30,255 nucleotides of DNA from a virus. Each line of letters starts with the position of its first letter. The first letter of the stretch is position 1. The stretch is from IMG/VR virus record IMGVR_UViG_3300007511_001042, positions 1 through 30,255 of that record; one strand, 5' to 3'. The position numbers were made by a program, and so were the translations under genes. A model generated the notes under the pieces. That model saw nothing but the letters and a program-made list of their open reading frames with translations, was not told the DNA's origin and made no database searches. Shown one piece after another: positions 17,815 through 25,922 of the stretch.

Positions 17815-18139
17815 GCGGAACGCCGGTGAATACCGACACGGACCCGGAATGCTCTACGTCCTGCTTTTCAGACCACCGCATCCTGGCCTTTGTCCACCAG
17901 ATTAAAGCCGTTGTGTCGCCGCTTGTGGCCTTCTGGTAAAGGGTCTGCGCTATCTTGGCGTTTGCTTTTGTGGCCGCCGTGTCCAGTTCTTCGCGGTAGT
18001 GTTCCCGTAAGGTCTTGGGCGCAACGCCTATCACCACCGCAATATCATCTTGCAGGATACCGCCCGCCGCCATAGCCTCTACCGTCTTGCGGCTTTGGTC
18101 TGTAGGTTCGTGCTTGGGCCTTCCACCTTTATCTTTCAT
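17801..18139 (-). CDS. terS: Terminase small subunit-like protein
   Basis: This 112-aa protein begins with GGRPKHEPTDQSRKTVEAMAA, followed by a helix-turn-helix (GILQDDIAVVIGVAPKTLREHY, about 27-48) and a helical segment ending in GDTTALIWWTKARMRW. From memory this order is typical of small DNA-packaging proteins that recognise pac DNA and recruit the large terminase. It starts at an ATGA overlap with the Mom gene and overlaps the large terminase by 14 bases, which supports the assignment. Confidence 0.75.
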   Translation of the reverse strand: MKDKGGRPKHEPTDQSRKTVEAMAAGGILQDDIAVVIGVAPKTLREHYREELDTAATKANAKIAQTLYQKATSGDTTALIWWTKARMRWSEKQDVEHSGSVSVFTGVPRDAD

Positions 18140-18846
18140 TCGGCACCCGTTGATTTTGGAGCGTGGCGGTCAGTGCTGCCCTGCCGCTGTGCCGCTGGAA
18201 CGGCCATCGCCTGCTTGCCACGCTTAATGCCTTTGTACATGCCCGCACCCGCTTCCTCAATTGCGCTGAATGGCAATTCAGGGACGGTCAGCCTTTCTCG
18301 GCACGCCTTATCTAGAAAATAGATATACCTCATCTGGAAACCGGGCAATGTTTCGGAGCCGGAAAAATCCCTCTTGCTCGTCCCGTGCTTCGCCGCAACG
18401 CTACCATCTGCGAGACGCACAATGGTACTGTTCTTCTTCAACCCACAAAGGACAAAGCCGCTGGCTCTGTAGATAGTCCCGTCCCCGCATTGAGTGCCGT
18501 CCGCGAAGGATACCACCCACTTGATCTGCGGATATTGTCTTTTGATAAGCCGAAAGGCCACCCCTATTGCGCGGCTCTCGCTGTTACGCGGCAGCCTCTC
18601 TCCGAAGGCCATGCGATTTAGTTCCAGCATGTCGTTCCATTTGGCTCCGGCGACCAGACCCAACAAATTGCGCCTATCAATTGGAGGGCCAAACTGCATA
18701 GCACCCTCTAAGCGCCCATCAAGGAACACGCCCATATGCAGCTGACTATTCTGCACCACCTTGCCGCTGTAATGGATACGCCTAACAAGGGCCGCCGCGT
18801 CTTTTGCGGATATTGGCTCGACACGCAAATCTTTAGCCGACGCCAT
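18136..18846 (-). CDS. mom: Mom-like adenine modification enzyme (GNAT fold)
   Basis: The start at 18846 is chosen because GTGGGGC lies upstream and it gives 236 aa, close to phage Mu Mom (231 aa). The sequence has IHYSGKVVQNSQLHMGVF, LEGAMQFGPPIDRRNLLGLV, WNDMLELNRMAFGERLPRNS and ESRAIGVAFRLIKRQYPQIK, then SFADGTQCGDGTIYRASGF, a pattern I recognise as the Mom family. Mom has an acetyltransferase-like fold and converts DNA adenine to N6-carbamoylmethyladenine, protecting phage DNA from restriction. Here it sits just upstream of terminase, so packaged DNA would be modified late. It overlaps the ParB-like gene by 14 bases. Mu's Com regulator was not seen. Confidence 0.8.
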   Translation of the reverse strand: MASAKDLRVEPISAKDAAALVRRIHYSGKVVQNSQLHMGVFLDGRLEGAMQFGPPIDRRNLLGLVAGAKWNDMLELNRMAFGERLPRNSESRAIGVAFRLIKRQYPQIKWVVSFADGTQCGDGTIYRASGFVLCGLKKNSTIVRLADGSVAAKHGTSKRDFSGSETLPGFQMRYIYFLDKACRERLTVPELPFSAIEEAGAGMYKGIKRGKQAMAVPAAQRQGSTDRHAPKSTGAE

Positions 18847-19465
18847 ATTGCCCCACAAACATCTCACAAACGCGGGACAAAGCGTTCCCGTTCCCGTTTT
18901 CGTTTGGTGAGTCAACAAACTCGCCCATCTCTTTGGCTATACGCAAGGCGTTAGAAACACTGTCGGCCTGCTCGTCGTGAAGTGTAAACGTCATTTGCTG
19001 GAAAGGTGACTTTTCACCATCCGGGAGGTCCGGGTATTCATCAATTGGCGTTGGGTTTAATGCGTCTAATTCGCCTTCATCGAAGCCAAGGGCTCCAATG
19101 TCAAACCCAAGTGCATCTAACTCGCCGATCTCACAGCGCAACAAATCCAAATCCCACCCGGCGTTCAGGGCCAGCTTGTTATCAGCAATAACCAGGGCTT
19201 TGCGCTGCGCCTCGGATAAATGGTCAAGCGCGATACAAGGCACATCATCCATGCCAAGTTTCTGCGCCGCCAAAAGCCTGCCGTGGCCAGCGATAATTCC
19301 CCGATCCCCGTCAATCAACAAAGGGTTGGTAAAGCCAAACTCCTTAATGCTGGCCGCTATCTGCGAAACCTGTTGCTCGCTGTGCGTCCGGCTGTTGTTG
19401 ATATACGGAATCAGGTCAGAAACCGCGATATACTCAATTTCCTTTTTATCCACGGTAAAAACCAC
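18833..19465 (-). CDS. ParB/Srx-like N-terminal domain protein
   Basis: This 210-aa protein has the ParB/sulfiredoxin-like fold signature: EYIAVSDLIPYINNSRTH (11-28), ASIKEFGFTNPLLID (38-52), then AGHGRLLAAQKLG (59-71) and VPCIALDHLSEAQRKALVIADNKLA. The GHGR motif corresponds to the nucleotide-binding site of this fold. The C-terminal 90 residues are acidic and unrelated to ParB. Phage proteins of this type often accompany DNA methylases, Mom and terminase genes; whether they act as nuclease, CTP switch or regulator is unsettled. The start is GTG with a GGAG site ten bases upstream. Confidence 0.75.
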   Translation of the reverse strand: MVFTVDKKEIEYIAVSDLIPYINNSRTHSEQQVSQIAASIKEFGFTNPLLIDGDRGIIAGHGRLLAAQKLGMDDVPCIALDHLSEAQRKALVIADNKLALNAGWDLDLLRCEIGELDALGFDIGALGFDEGELDALNPTPIDEYPDLPDGEKSPFQQMTFTLHDEQADSVSNALRIAKEMGEFVDSPNENGNGNALSRVCEMFVGQYGVG

Positions 19466-20659: not shown

Positions 20660-21115
20660 TTACGCCACACCATTCCAACCGGCCACCATCTGCGCCTTTT
20701 GCGCCCGGTGGAGTTTGGCCCTCTCCCGGTTTTTGTGCTGCTCGCAAAACGTCAGAAAATCGGCAATCGAGGGCGGGCTTGGGTATTTGTGGGTGCGGAT
20801 TAAATCCGTTGCCGCCTGATCGAGAACGCAATCTGGAAACTCTGAAAACTGCCGGAACCATTCCTTCATTCCGCCCTCACTCGGCGGGGTCAGAACCGAA
20901 AACAGCCGGTCCAGAACAACCGCTAAACCCTTTTCTCCCGCCGGGGATAATCGCTTTTCCTCGGCAATCACCACCTGGGCCGCGTCATTCGCCACACTCA
21001 CCGAAACAGGTAAATCCATGTTACCGTCCCATTCCTGCAACGATCCGGCTCCGTCGCTCGTCGTCAGAGATTTCCCCCTTGCGGGTAGTTTGACCACTTC
21101 GCCTATTTGCTTCAT
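20660..21115 (-). CDS. Probable helicase loader / replication P-like protein
   Basis: The start at 21115 is chosen for AAGGCG upstream; the longer frame would run deep into the preceding gene. The 151-aa protein has a short Lys-rich N-terminus, then WFRQFSEFPDCVLDQAATDL and THKYPSPPSIADFLTFCEQH (about 95-125). From memory this resembles the pattern in phage helicase loader/inhibitor proteins of the G39P type and in replication P proteins. Its gene follows the initiator gene that carries the repeats, as lambda P follows O. Direct evidence of helicase binding is lacking. Confidence 0.5.
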   Translation of the reverse strand: MKQIGEVVKLPARGKSLTTSDGAGSLQEWDGNMDLPVSVSVANDAAQVVIAEEKRLSPAGEKGLAVVLDRLFSVLTPPSEGGMKEWFRQFSEFPDCVLDQAATDLIRTHKYPSPPSIADFLTFCEQHKNRERAKLHRAQKAQMVAGWNGVA

Positions 21116-21755
21116 TTTTTCGCCTTTTCGCTTCCATTCTGCAAAAATTCCGATAAGCGGCGCGGTAACATTTGTAGGTTTTCCCGGTGGCTTGGCAGTA
21201 TCCGCGCAAATCCTCCAACACCGCAGGGGGGTCGCATCCATACCGGATTGCGTATTGCTCGTCGTCATGGGTTAAAACAAAATCATCCAACAGGGGTTTT
21301 TCTTTTTTATATATTTTTTCTTTCTTTCTTTCTGGTATCTGGCTTCTGGTATGCTGCCTTGTTTTTTGCAGCCCTTTTCCCGTTAAGTTGTTGATTTCCC
21401 TTAATTCTGCCCTTTTCTCGGCGGTTTTTAATCCACCTTTCGCGCCATTTTCGACAAACTTTCGCGCTTCTTTCGCGTCGTTTTCGCGCGTTTTTTCTGC
21501 CCGAAAATTATCCAAACACTCTCCGCTTACGAAAATCTTGCCCTTGTCGATCAGTTTTTGGCGGATGATTTTCCACTTACGAACAGAGCAGCCACAGGCG
21601 CGGGAAATCCATTGGGGGTCGTCTGGTATTGCCGCGCCCCTGTCGTAAATCAGATCGAGACAAACCGAATATGCGCCCTTCTCCTCAAGGGATAATTCCA
21701 GGGTGCCGGTGATGAAGTCGGCCCCATAACGCTTATACCAAGGCCGTGCGCTCAA
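21021..21755 (-). CDS. DUF1376-type phage replication initiator (O-like)
   Basis: I choose the TTG at 21755, which overlaps the preceding stop as TTGA and has AAGGAAGG eight bases upstream. The 244-aa protein begins with RPWYKRYGADFITGTLELSLEEKGAY (from residue 4), then LDLIYDRGAAIPDDPQWISRACGCSVRKWK, the DUF1376 DNA-binding domain found in phage replication proteins. The middle is Lys/Glu-rich, and the C-terminal part contains CYRAAYRNFCRMEAKRR. The gene contains phased 11-bp repeats and an AT-rich tract, as lambda O contains the lambda origin. It probably binds these repeats and starts phage replication. Confidence 0.7.
   Translation of the reverse strand: MSARPWYKRYGADFITGTLELSLEEKGAYSVCLDLIYDRGAAIPDDPQWISRACGCSVRKWKIIRQKLIDKGKIFVSGECLDNFRAEKTRENDAKEARKFVENGAKGGLKTAEKRAELREINNLTGKGLQKTRQHTRSQIPERKKEKIYKKEKPLLDDFVLTHDDEQYAIRYGCDPPAVLEDLRGYCQATGKTYKCYRAAYRNFCRMEAKRRKNEANRRSGQTTRKGEISDDERRSRIVAGMGR
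21296..21334. other. AT-rich asymmetric tract, candidate DNA-unwinding element
   Basis: About 39 bases are almost pure pyrimidine on the plus strand, with a TATATA core near 21309-21314 and three TTTC copies. On the coding strand this encodes Lys/Glu. It lies about 100 bases downstream of the 11-bp repeats in the direction of transcription. Next to it, TTCTGGTAT occurs twice, at 21330 and 21344. Confidence 0.5.
21438..21492. repeat. Five phased 11-bp repeats (iteron-like)
   Basis: TTTCG begins at 21438, 21449, 21460, 21471 and 21482, an exact 11-base period. Units are TTTCGCGCCAT, TTTCGACAAAC, TTTCGCGCTTC, TTTCGCGTCGT and TTTCGCGCGTT. Eleven is not a multiple of three, so the repeat is not a protein repeat and suggests selection on DNA. 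One turn of the helix per unit places all copies on one face. They lie within the DUF1376 gene. Confidence 0.65.
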
Positions 21756-22039
21756 GCCGCCACCTTCCTTGCGAACGCCCTGCAATTCCCGCATAGGCGG
21801 TTGAACCTTCCGTCAGCCGTGAAATCCTTGTGGCATCTCAGGCATGTGCGCCCCACCTTTTCAATCTGCGGGTTCTCTGTTTTGATATAATCCTCAACCG
21901 TTCCTCGTCTGGTATAAAAACGGTGGGCGCAGGTCTTTGGGCGTCGGGTCAGCCTCTTGCCGATCTGCCGCCATGTTGCTTTGCGTTCCCGCATGGCATC
22001 CATTATCCTGTCGTCCTCCGACGTCCATTGTTTTCTCAT
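21752..22039 (-). CDS. SANT/Myb-like protein with C-terminal zinc-ribbon-like motif
   Basis: This 95-aa protein starts at an ATGA overlap (22039). Residues 3-45 (KQWTSEDDRIMDAMRERKATWRQ..., then TRRPKTCAHRFYTRR) match a Myb/SANT-like DNA-binding helix bundle with conserved Trp residues. Cys66, Cys69, Cys83 and Cys86 form a CxxC-x13-CxxC zinc-binding arrangement. The gene lies between the DnaA-like gene and the replication initiator, so a DNA-binding role in early control or replication is likely. It ends in Val-Ala-Ala, and its stop overlaps the next TTG start. Confidence 0.6.
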   Translation of the reverse strand: MRKQWTSEDDRIMDAMRERKATWRQIGKRLTRRPKTCAHRFYTRRGTVEDYIKTENPQIEKVGRTCLRCHKDFTADGRFNRLCGNCRAFARKVAA

Positions 22040-22377
22040 GCCGCCTTCCTCATACGCCATGTCTGGGATAGTTTTCGTGTTGCTTCCTTGCGCTTAAACG
22101 TCACCCTCGCGCCGATCCGTGTAATAAGGGCGGCGAGGTTAGGATTGCGCTCAACCCGGCTCTCCGCAGCGTTTATGCCCTTGATTATGGTTGTGTGGTC
22201 ACGATCCAACATCCGTCCGATTTGGGGCAGGGAAAGACTGGTGGAATTTCGCGCGATCAACATGACATATTGGCGAGGCCATGCAATATTCCTTGACCTG
22301 CGGGGAGAAAATATCCACTGAATCGGAATATCAAATTCCTTCGATACCTCAATAGCGATTTGCTCAACAACGTTCAT
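22036..22377 (-). CDS. Stand-alone DnaA domain IV-like DNA-binding protein
   Basis: This 113-aa protein corresponds to the C-terminal DNA-binding domain of DnaA. SRNIAWPRQYVMLIAR (28-43) matches its first helices, and LPQIGRMLDRDHTTIIKGIN (50-69) contains the RDHTT signature (59-63) that reads the DnaA box. The AAA+ ATPase and other domains are absent. A basic tail of about 25 residues follows and ends in Arg-Lys-Ala-Ala. In phages such proteins may recruit or block host replication or act as regulators. The gene lies just before the replication module and overlaps the membrane-protein gene by 14 bases. Confidence 0.8.
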   Translation of the reverse strand: MNVVEQIAIEVSKEFDIPIQWIFSPRRSRNIAWPRQYVMLIARNSTSLSLPQIGRMLDRDHTTIIKGINAAESRVERNPNLAALITRIGARVTFKRKEATRKLSQTWRMRKAA

Positions 22378-23439: not shown

Positions 23440-23772
23440 TCATGGCAGGCGGTGGTGCATGGCTCCGGCAATGCCTTTCATGCGCCGCCAAAATTTCACC
23501 AGCTTTCTTTCCTCGCGGTGGTCAATCTTCCCGCCCAAGGCGTCGGCATATTCCAAACTGCCTTGCGCGAGATAAAAGTTGGCATCCATGTGATTGGTGT
23601 CGAACCCGTCAATGTTGTGGGTTTCCATGACGGTAAAAACAGCATTTAAAAGATCAGGCCTGGAATCCGTCGCCCGCTCCACCGATTGCGCCGACGCGCA
23701 CAATTCCGCGAAAAGAGCCGTCTGGGAATTACGGTATGTGCAGCGTGAATTACTGGAACCGGCGTGACTCAT
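23440..23772 (-). CDS. Hypothetical early protein
   Basis: This 110-aa protein starts at an ATGA overlap with the Cro-like gene (GCCGCATGA). The first half is polar and Ser/Asn-rich with Cys at 11 and 26. The second half contains NIDGFDTNHMDANFYLAQGSLEYADALGG and a basic helix (REERKLVKFWRRMKG). No family was recognised. As the second gene of the leftward early transcript it corresponds in position to lambda cII, but no helix-turn-helix was seen. Confidence 0.5.
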   Translation of the reverse strand: MSHAGSSNSRCTYRNSQTALFAELCASAQSVERATDSRPDLLNAVFTVMETHNIDGFDTNHMDANFYLAQGSLEYADALGGKIDHREERKLVKFWRRMKGIAGAMHHRLP

Positions 23773-23984
23773 GCGGCCTCGTCCCGTGGGTATAAATCGG
23801 GGCGCAGATCATGGCGGGAAACGCCGGTGATCTTCTCCACATCCAGAACCCGTGTTGCGGGAACCCTTCGCCATTGTGAAACAGCCGCGCCGGAAATTTC
23901 CAGCTTTGCCGCCAGCTTGGACACCCCTGTGGCGCGGGTGATCGCGCTGGTAAGGGCCTCGTCTCTGTTTGTGGGATTTGTCAT
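23769..23984 (-). CDS. Cro-like repressor, translated from a leaderless mRNA
   Basis: The start is placed at the ATG at 23984 (71 aa) because the promoter -10 covers the first in-frame ATG at 23993. The predicted transcript begins at or one base before 23984, so the mRNA would be leaderless. The sequence ITRATGVSKLAAKLEISGAAVSQWRR (about 15-40) is a Cro/YdaS-type helix-turn-helix, followed by ATRVLDVEKITGVSRHDLRPDLYP, usual for such phage regulators. It probably binds the three dyads upstream. It ends in Glu-Ala-Ala and couples to the next gene by ATGA. A CI-type partner was not found. Confidence 0.75.
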   Translation of the reverse strand: MTNPTNRDEALTSAITRATGVSKLAAKLEISGAAVSQWRRVPATRVLDVEKITGVSRHDLRPDLYPRDEAA

Positions 23985-23991
23985 GAACCGC

Positions 23992-24012
23992 ATAATAAGA
24001 AACGCTTATTAT
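23992..24012. promoter_or_regulatory. Operator 1
   Basis: Core AATAAG-AAACG-CTTATT (23994-24010) is a perfect 17-bp dyad. It extends by AT on each side to 8-bp arms (23992-24012). It lies between the -35 and -10 of the leftward promoter, so a bound repressor would block polymerase. Confidence 0.8.
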
Positions 24013-24020
24013 CTTGTCAA
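23992..24020 (-). promoter_or_regulatory. Leftward early promoter with operator in its spacer
   Basis: Reverse-strand TTGACA (24020-24015), a 17-base spacer and TATTAT (23997-23992) form a near-consensus sigma-70 promoter. The start site falls near 23984, at the Cro-like ATG. The spacer is nearly filled by operator 1. Confidence 0.85.
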
Positions 24021-24051
24021 GAACTTCGTGGGGTTTATTTTTGCCTGTTGT

Positions 24052-24068
24052 AATAAGTTTCGCTTATT
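24052..24068. promoter_or_regulatory. Operator 2
   Basis: AATAAG-TTTCG-CTTATT is a second perfect dyad with the same arms and a 5-base spacer. It lies between the two promoters, 58 bases centre-to-centre from operator 1 and 33 from operator 3. Confidence 0.8.
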
Positions 24069-24074
24069 TTGTTC

Positions 24075-24103
24075 TTGACAGGACAATAAGCGTTTCTTAA
24101 TAT
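24075..24103 (+). promoter_or_regulatory. Rightward early promoter
   Basis: TTGACA (24075-24080), a 17-base spacer and TAATAT (24098-24103) form a near-consensus promoter facing the recombination genes. The predicted start is near 24110. Both early promoters share the context GTTCTTGACA, so they look like diverged copies. Confidence 0.85.
24085..24101. promoter_or_regulatory. Operator 3
   Basis: AATAAG-CGTTT-CTTAAT has one mismatch in the right arm compared with operators 1 and 2. It lies in the spacer of the rightward promoter, so that promoter may be repressed more weakly. Confidence 0.75.
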
Positions 24104-24176
24104 GGGGACACCCAATAGGGAACGGCCCCGCCCGAAGCCGTAAGTCAACAGAGGGCAACGCATCTTCAAGAAAGGG

Positions 24177-25081: not shown

Positions 25082-25251
25082 GCAAGGAAATGTATATAGC
25101 AGCCCATGAACAAATGATTAAGGAGTTTATGGAGGAGAACCCGGAAGCGACGGAGGACGAGGCATACGTAAAAACGGCGGACGCAGCTTATGGCCGCATG
25201 GTCAACAATATGACAGCACAGGCCGACGCATACGCAGACAGGGAGAAATAA
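25078..25251 (+). CDS. Small acidic hypothetical protein
   Basis: This 57-codon ORF starts at an ATGA overlap and ends at a TAATG overlap with the ERF gene. The product is helical and acidic (MYIAAHEQMIKEFMEEN, then TEDEAYVKTADAAYGRMVNN). Coupling on both sides and the matching frame order support it as a real gene. The function is unknown; its position directly before a recombinase suggests the same module. Confidence 0.6.
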   Translation: MSKEMYIAAHEQMIKEFMEENPEATEDEAYVKTADAAYGRMVNNMTAQADAYADREK

Positions 25252-25922
25252 TGTTTCATTCAGAAAAGATTGACCAGATCGCCGCAGCCTTAGTGAAGGC
25301 CCAAGGTGAAATCGTCCCAGCCACAAAAGAGAGCGAAAACCCGTTCTTTAAATCCAAATATGCCGATTTGGGGTCTGTCTGGCGAGCCTGTTCCACCGCC
25401 CTCCACAGTAACGGGATTGCCGTCATCCAAGGCGCAGAGCCTGGGGCGGGGGAGAACATGAAAGACGCGAGGAACTTCCTCTCCTGCACCCTGCTTCATT
25501 CATCGGGCCAGTGGATCAAGGGTGTGTTCCCCCTCGTTTCCGGCAAGCCTCTTGACCCGCAATCCATGGGTGCCGCCATCACTTATATGCGCCGCTATTC
25601 ACTGGCCGCAATGGTGGGGATTACACAAGAGGACGACGACGGCAATTCCGCTATGCCCCGTGACGGATCGGAAATGGCGGGGGGCGCTGCATCGGTAGCA
25701 GCCGAACAGAAAAGAAGGAAAGCCCAGCCACCTGCACCACTGAACGAAACCGTCCAGCCCCTTGTTGATGAAATTTGGGAAACAACCGACTTGTCGGGGT
25801 TGGAGAAGTGGCAAGCAAAATCCAAGGATGAAATCGACAAGCTGAAAGAGGCCGACAAGAAAGAAGTCCGAACGGCCTATATGCAGAAACGGGAATCATT
25901 CAACAAGAAGGTAGCCGCATGA
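25251..25922 (+). CDS. erf: ERF-family single-strand annealing protein
   Basis: This 223-aa protein has the ERF signature. NPFFKSKYADLGSVW (29-43) is followed by HSNGIAVIQGAEPGAG, a strand-rich region with LHSSGQWIKGVFPL, and SMGAAITYMRRYSLAAMVGI (104-123) with EDDDGN. ERF proteins form rings on single-stranded DNA and anneal complementary strands, giving phage homologous recombination and genome circularisation or repair. The C-terminal 90 residues are Lys/Glu/Ala-rich, as usual for a variable tail. The gene is followed by SSB, a common partner, through an ATGA overlap. Confidence 0.85.
   Translation: MFHSEKIDQIAAALVKAQGEIVPATKESENPFFKSKYADLGSVWRACSTALHSNGIAVIQGAEPGAGENMKDARNFLSCTLLHSSGQWIKGVFPLVSGKPLDPQSMGAAITYMRRYSLAAMVGITQEDDDGNSAMPRDGSEMAGGAASVAAEQKRRKAQPPAPLNETVQPLVDEIWETTDLSGLEKWQAKSKDEIDKLKEADKKEVRTAYMQKRESFNKKVAA

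Follow-up and report, generated by a model that had tools for sequence, protein, structure and literature searches.

The virus record analyzed here over its full length of 30,255 bp (IMGVR_UViG_3300007511_001042; hereafter, the window) contains a gene in which the bases that encode a protein also form short repeats at an exact 11-bp period, followed by an AT-rich tract. Does this segment serve as the replication origin of the phage, or is its regularity a by-product of the encoded protein, of DNA packaging, of DNA curvature or of repeat slippage? The initial annotation had proposed a probable phage origin, and our findings lend support to that reading: the phase of the repeats is conserved among homologues, synonymous codon choices follow it, and the order of iterons and tract is retained. 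From this sequence evidence, we consider it very likely that the array and tract constitute an origin resembling that of lambda O, with one-turn iterons bound by the product of the gene and the AT-rich tract opened.

An 11-bp array within a DUF1376 gene

The gene (21021–21794, minus strand; 257 codons) is annotated through Pfam and PHROG as a DUF1376 (PF07120) gene encoding a putative O-like replication initiator. Its product matches DUF1376 with E = 4.7e-17 and 62.6 bits, above the gathering cut-off of 30.1; the same Pfam search returned no other match and no O family profile. Among PHROGs, the protein matches families designated "primosomal protein" (E = 1.7e-24), with the remaining matches being to families of unknown function. 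Translation probably starts at the TTG at 21755, because homologues begin at the position matching codon 14 (MSARPWYKR); the gene would then overlap the stop of its upstream neighbor by 4 bp.

Recounting of positions confirmed the five TTTCG words described within this gene, which start at 21438, 21449, 21460, 21471 and 21482 on the plus strand (21438–21486) and therefore follow one another at exact 11-bp steps. Four of the five extend to TTTCGCG, the exception being TTTCGAC at 21449. The word itself occurs at chance level on the two strands of the window (95 seen versus 98 expected), and thus it is the phasing rather than the word that is special. Read on the coding (minus) strand, the words belong to seven to eight GAAAACGnnnC units of period 11. 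The complete array (21409–21496, minus strand), delineated by conservation in 50 homologues, by synonymous codon choice and by its uniqueness in the window, comprises the eight 11-bp units AAAAAACGCGC, GAAAACGACGC, GAAAGAAGCGC, GAAAGTTTGTC, GAAAATGGCGC, GAAAGGTGGAT, TAAAAACCGCC and GAGAAAAGGGC in coding sense, of which GAAAACGACGC through GAAAGGTGGAT form the core and the degenerate remainder flank it on both sides. A motif model built without the window phage scores the array at 43.3, compared with 3.9 for the next-best site on either strand of the window.

Conservation of the array and its phase exceeds what protein coding explains

We scanned IMG/VR and GTDB contigs and added annotated phages, which gave 89 homologous genes, and retained 50 after dropping those of more than 80% identity; these belong to alphaproteobacterial phages and prophages. 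Base identity was evaluated in the segment immediately 3' of the DUF1376 domain, against shuffles that preserve both the protein and the codon usage of every gene. The signal at lags 11 and 22 reached z = 13.6 each, with none of 200 shuffles attaining the observed value, in statistics that, like the z-scores and E-values throughout this report, ignore the tree. Smaller positive excursions fell mostly at lags near 11 and 22, plus 32–34. A second null, in which the codons came from this segment in the full set of genes to control for its local A-richness, left lag 11 at z = 12.8 and lag 22 at z = 10.4. Lag 11 was still the strongest among the 16 homologues below 50% identity (z = 7.7) and the nine below 40% identity (z = 4.4).

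The units conform to the model G-A-A-A-(A)-C-G-n-n-n-(C/T), are mostly present in 5 to 12 copies per gene and are spaced by exactly 11 bp in 250 of 297 cases. Relative to the protein, their phase is constant, with excess only at positions 30 + 11n from the domain-end anchor and in the immediately neighboring frames. At in-phase positions, synonymous choices are almost invariant: 40 of 42 Arg codons have A as their last base (23% elsewhere, p = 7e-23), 26 of 30 Ala codons are GCG (27% elsewhere), 16 of 21 Ser codons are TCG (22% elsewhere), 63 of 65 Lys codons are AAA (50% elsewhere) and 58 of 64 Glu codons are GAA (49% elsewhere). Most of these contrasts stay significant when out-of-phase codons from within the segment serve as the reference. 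Such choices cannot be explained by the protein alone, and conservation of the array, phase included, extends to the DNA itself. The proposal that relatives would keep the phase and the core at synonymous sites was thus borne out.

Retention of the protein with loss of the phase, which had been named as evidence against an origin, is confined to a few divergent members: three genes have no clear array (L011, L056 and L070) and two have a weak one (L037 and L045), while Sinorhizobium phage phiLM21 swaps in iterons of another sequence, four near-perfect 11-bp units (CAACGGACGTT) at nucleotides 355–398 of its DUF1376 gene. Unit sequence co-varies with the DNA-binding domain (Mantel r = 0.26–0.27, p = 0.001), a correlation confounded by common descent and therefore no proof that the protein and its units are matched.

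The same data bear on the idea that the array is a functionless product of neutral slippage. Some arrays in other genomes are indeed perfect tandem repeats, but units generally diverge except at core positions and the phase is kept among homologues below 40%–50% identity. Moreover, a single gain or loss of 11 bp shifts the reading frame, so neutral slippage should favor periods of 9, 12 or 15. We regard this explanation as extremely unlikely.

The encoded protein accounts for part of the periodicity

An AlphaFold2 model computed from a 37-sequence alignment predicts an N-terminal winged-helix domain at residues 24–95 (21510–21725, minus strand; pLDDT mostly >90), a long continuous helix at residues 97–135 that coincides with the array, a disordered linker at residues about 136–167 that is partly encoded by the AT-rich tract, and C-terminal helices. 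Foldseek returned weak matches to generic winged helices of the MarR, CRP and DnaD-N types, none below E = 1e-3, and sequence searches found no relatives of the protein among solved structures. The predicted winged helix is probably the part of DUF1376 that binds the 11-bp units.

The predicted helix matters for the interpretation of the period. The initial annotation had held that a protein repeat cannot produce a period indivisible by three; this was overstated, since 11 nucleotides correspond to 3.67 residues, close to the alpha-helical repeat. The DNA period might accordingly be the shadow of an amphipathic helix with a 3.6-residue repeat (10.8 nucleotides, three units making an 11-residue repeat), as the overlap of helix 97–135 with the array would allow. 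Consistent with this, some lag-11 excess survives codon shuffling (0.319, compared with about 0.26 in lags away from the peak). Yet the observed value of 0.376 lies far above both the codon-shuffle and local-codon nulls, the excess is confined to in-phase synonymous third positions, and DnaD-like initiators (see below) keep the period in linkers rich in Gln, Thr, Asn and Pro, which bear little resemblance to amphipathic helices. The protein contributes part of the lag-11 periodicity and is insufficient for the rest; that a helix repeat explains the array as a whole appears very unlikely.

An AT-rich tract occupies a conserved place 3' of the iterons

About 77 bp past the last array unit begins a purine tract of 36 bp that is 86% AT (21296–21331, minus strand; coding-sense AAAGAAAGAAAGAAAAAATATATAAAAAAGAAAAAC), a putative unwinding element. 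Across the 50 homologues, AT content exceeds that of codon shuffles from +140 to +220 relative to the anchor at the end of the DUF1376 domain; at +160 to +180, the rise is +11.4% observed versus +1.1% expected (t = 10). The most AT-rich 36-mer lies downstream of the domain, at +60 to +330, in 46 of 50 genes. The lambda-like order of iterons followed by an AT-rich tract, first noted in the window, is therefore kept across homologues, in excess of what codon content provides.

One-turn arrays recur in other phage initiator genes

A scan of IMG/VR that used DNA alone, requiring six GAAA words at 11-bp steps, identified at least 120 stretches and yielded 80 readable loci. Among the matches listed, 47 of 80 lie within replication-initiator ORFs (16 DUF1376 and 31 other initiators), with GAAA on the coding strand in all 47, and imperfect arrays fall in initiator ORFs in 32 of 40 listed cases. 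The initiators other than DUF1376 were assigned by PHROG to DnaD-like helicase loaders and replication initiators, and two further ORFs with a period-11 array match replisome-organizer or replication-initiation PHROGs. Control scans at period 10 (47 loci) and period 13 (27 loci) placed 0 of 74 loci in initiator ORFs, a comparison of which only the DUF1376 part (16 of 80 versus 0 of 74) is strictly independent, because the period-11 loci themselves had supplied the DnaD-like profile.

For one DnaD-like member, we retrieved relatives through peptides outside the array, so that their selection did not depend on it. In the resulting 19 non-redundant genes, lag 22 reached z = 10.4 and lag 11 z = 9.9, and the units are highly different (CAACCAACTGT, CCAAGTAGCAG, GTGAGAGCCAG and ACAGAAAGGGC). 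An unbiased sample of 31 PF07120 genes outside the alphaproteobacterial branch likewise had its strongest signal at lag 11 (z = 4.6), with units such as CCAACGGCGTT. One-turn architecture thus recurs in other phage initiator genes, one of which has a record stating that it contains an origin. The rule is not universal, as the rep gene of TP901-1, a DnaD-like phage protein intended as a second positive control, has no 11-bp array. A further DnaD-like initiator gene (L353, IMGVR_UViG_3300022719_000091) carries perfect repeats of 12 rather than 11 bp (GGTCCACGGGTA) and is a possible exception.

These comparisons also help to evaluate whether the arrays are phased A-tracts whose bending of the DNA serves a host protein or transcription, with no sequence-specific binding by an initiator. 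The DUF1376 units do carry A3–A4 runs at near-helical phase, but runs of A4 or longer are found in 144 of 336 units, under half, where a phased A-tract bend would have them in most, and the flanking G and C/G positions are enriched too. Other initiators maintain 11 bp with units that have no A-tracts, such as GTGAGAGCCAG and CCAAGTAGCAG. That the period is held while unit sequence drifts favors assembly of protein on one face of the DNA over A-tract curvature, and we judge simple bending to be highly improbable.

Taken with the DUF1376 data, these arrays make it likely, with some reservation on our part, that linker-coding 11-bp iterons are a recurrent design of phage origins across families, here comprising DUF1376, DnaD-like loaders, replisome organizers and an actinobacterial-type initiator. 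The period would be fixed and the unit free, initiator and origin would travel as a self-matched pair, and the period alone would suffice to locate both.

Genomic context of the array

The array could alternatively be a packaging (pac) site recognized by the small terminase. In a rhizobial sub-group (PBC5 and Atu_ph08), the small terminase is in fact the next gene. The array nonetheless remains in the DUF1376 gene where neighbors differ, the large terminase of the window lies several genes away, and similar arrays reside in initiator genes of other families, Tuc2009 rep included. Since it is the initiator gene that the array accompanies, with a terminase adjacent only in the rhizobial sub-group, we consider a packaging function very unlikely.

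Genes flanking DUF1376 vary across loci, and no conserved P-like or helicase-loader gene was identified among them. In the window, an overlapping downstream gene encoding 202 amino acids (20660–21268, minus strand) is, by its position, a possible helicase-loader (P-like) partner; its product has no family match in Pfam or PHROG. A nearby gene (22036–22377, minus strand) encodes a small protein that consists largely of a DnaA domain-IV helix-turn-helix (Bac_DnaA_C; Pfam E = 4.9e-20). Such a neighbor accompanies DUF1376 in 11 of 50 loci, including those of phiLM21 and RHph_TM3_3_3, and is therefore not an obligate partner; for the same reason, we rejected it as the array binder.

It had also been suggested that cumulative GC skew might switch at the array. 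No switch occurs there; the skew turns at about 23.5–24 kb, where gene direction changes, and because the turn tracks gene direction it neither supports nor opposes an origin at the array. Close to this point, three operator-like palindromes (AATAAGAAACGCTTATT, AATAAGTTTCGCTTATT and AATAAGCGTTTCTTAAT; 23988–24107) adjoin a small leftward ORF (23769–23993), ahead of the rightward genes. This region is a probable lysis-lysogeny switch, and on account of these sites the virus is probably a temperate phage. Near the beginning of the rightward cluster, a gene encodes an Erf-like single-strand annealing protein (25251–25922, plus strand). Elsewhere in the window, a gene at 18136–18918 (minus strand) encodes a Mom-like DNA modification protein (PHROG 1384, E = 2.4e-49), and the phage DNA may thus be modified.

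A model for initiation at the array

We infer three steps: DUF1376 binds the array, the tract unwinds, and replication begins at this site. The protein would bind the 11-bp units with one winged-helix domain per helical turn, placing all bound domains on the same face of the DNA to form a nucleoprotein array comparable to that of lambda O on its iterons. This assembly would strain and open the AT-rich tract, about 80–100 bp farther on in the gene, and a loader could then place the helicase there. With the array located inside the gene, initiator and origin would form a self-matched unit.

If correct, this model offers a specific and testable role for a domain of unknown function, with its target located to the base pair. 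A simple rule, period 11 inside an initiator gene with the unit free, could locate origins in many uncultured phages using nothing but sequence. It also raises the question of how the same bases encode a protein linker and a one-turn array, in three reading frames at once.

Comparison with known origins

Our search of the open-access literature found no description of 11-bp in-gene phage iterons, though the subscription literature may hold one, and among open-access papers mentioning DUF1376, none is about replication as judged by titles and abstracts. A DUF1376 domain is also present in YdaU of the E. coli Rac prophage, which has an active origin, oriJ (PMC3945230); we found no source that places oriJ in ydaU. 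In E. coli K-12, ydaU (L092, 4120–4977) has TGTTCAAACA repeats in its DUF1376 linker, along with an inverted TGTTTGAACA. These repeats are palindrome-like and spaced by 23 and 33 bp, and ydaU differs from the window gene in having no GAAA array.

In the O genes of lambda and Stx phages, the origin lies mid-gene, with iterons followed in the 3' direction by an AT-rich tract (PMC7466680; NC_001416 annotation). The window shares with lambda O the placement of the proposed origin in the initiator gene, past the N-terminal DNA-binding part, and the same order of elements. Lambda iterons, however, are 18-bp inverted repeats at 20–24 bp, whereas the window units are non-palindromic and follow at exact 11-bp steps; the array contains no lambda-type 18-bp palindromic iterons at 20–24 bp. 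Applied to lambda O as a control, our lag method returned the known 20-, 23- and 24-bp spacings.

Gene 38 of SPP1 contains oriL, where gp38 binds direct repeats beside an AT-rich unwinding element (PMC6316719). By this published description, it resembles the window in that the initiator's own gene holds both repeats and AT-rich element, although gp38 is a different protein from DUF1376. For the rep gene (orf16) of Lactococcus phage Tuc2009, the record reads "Rep; contains origin of replication." CAACCAA units recur in this gene at 11 bp (z = 4.7, 0 of 200 shuffles). It encodes a helicase loader of the DnaD-like family rather than DUF1376, and its unit sequence is unrelated. As in the window, tandem 11-bp units (CAACCAANNNN) lie within the gene, followed in Tuc2009 by short purine-rich tandem repeats.
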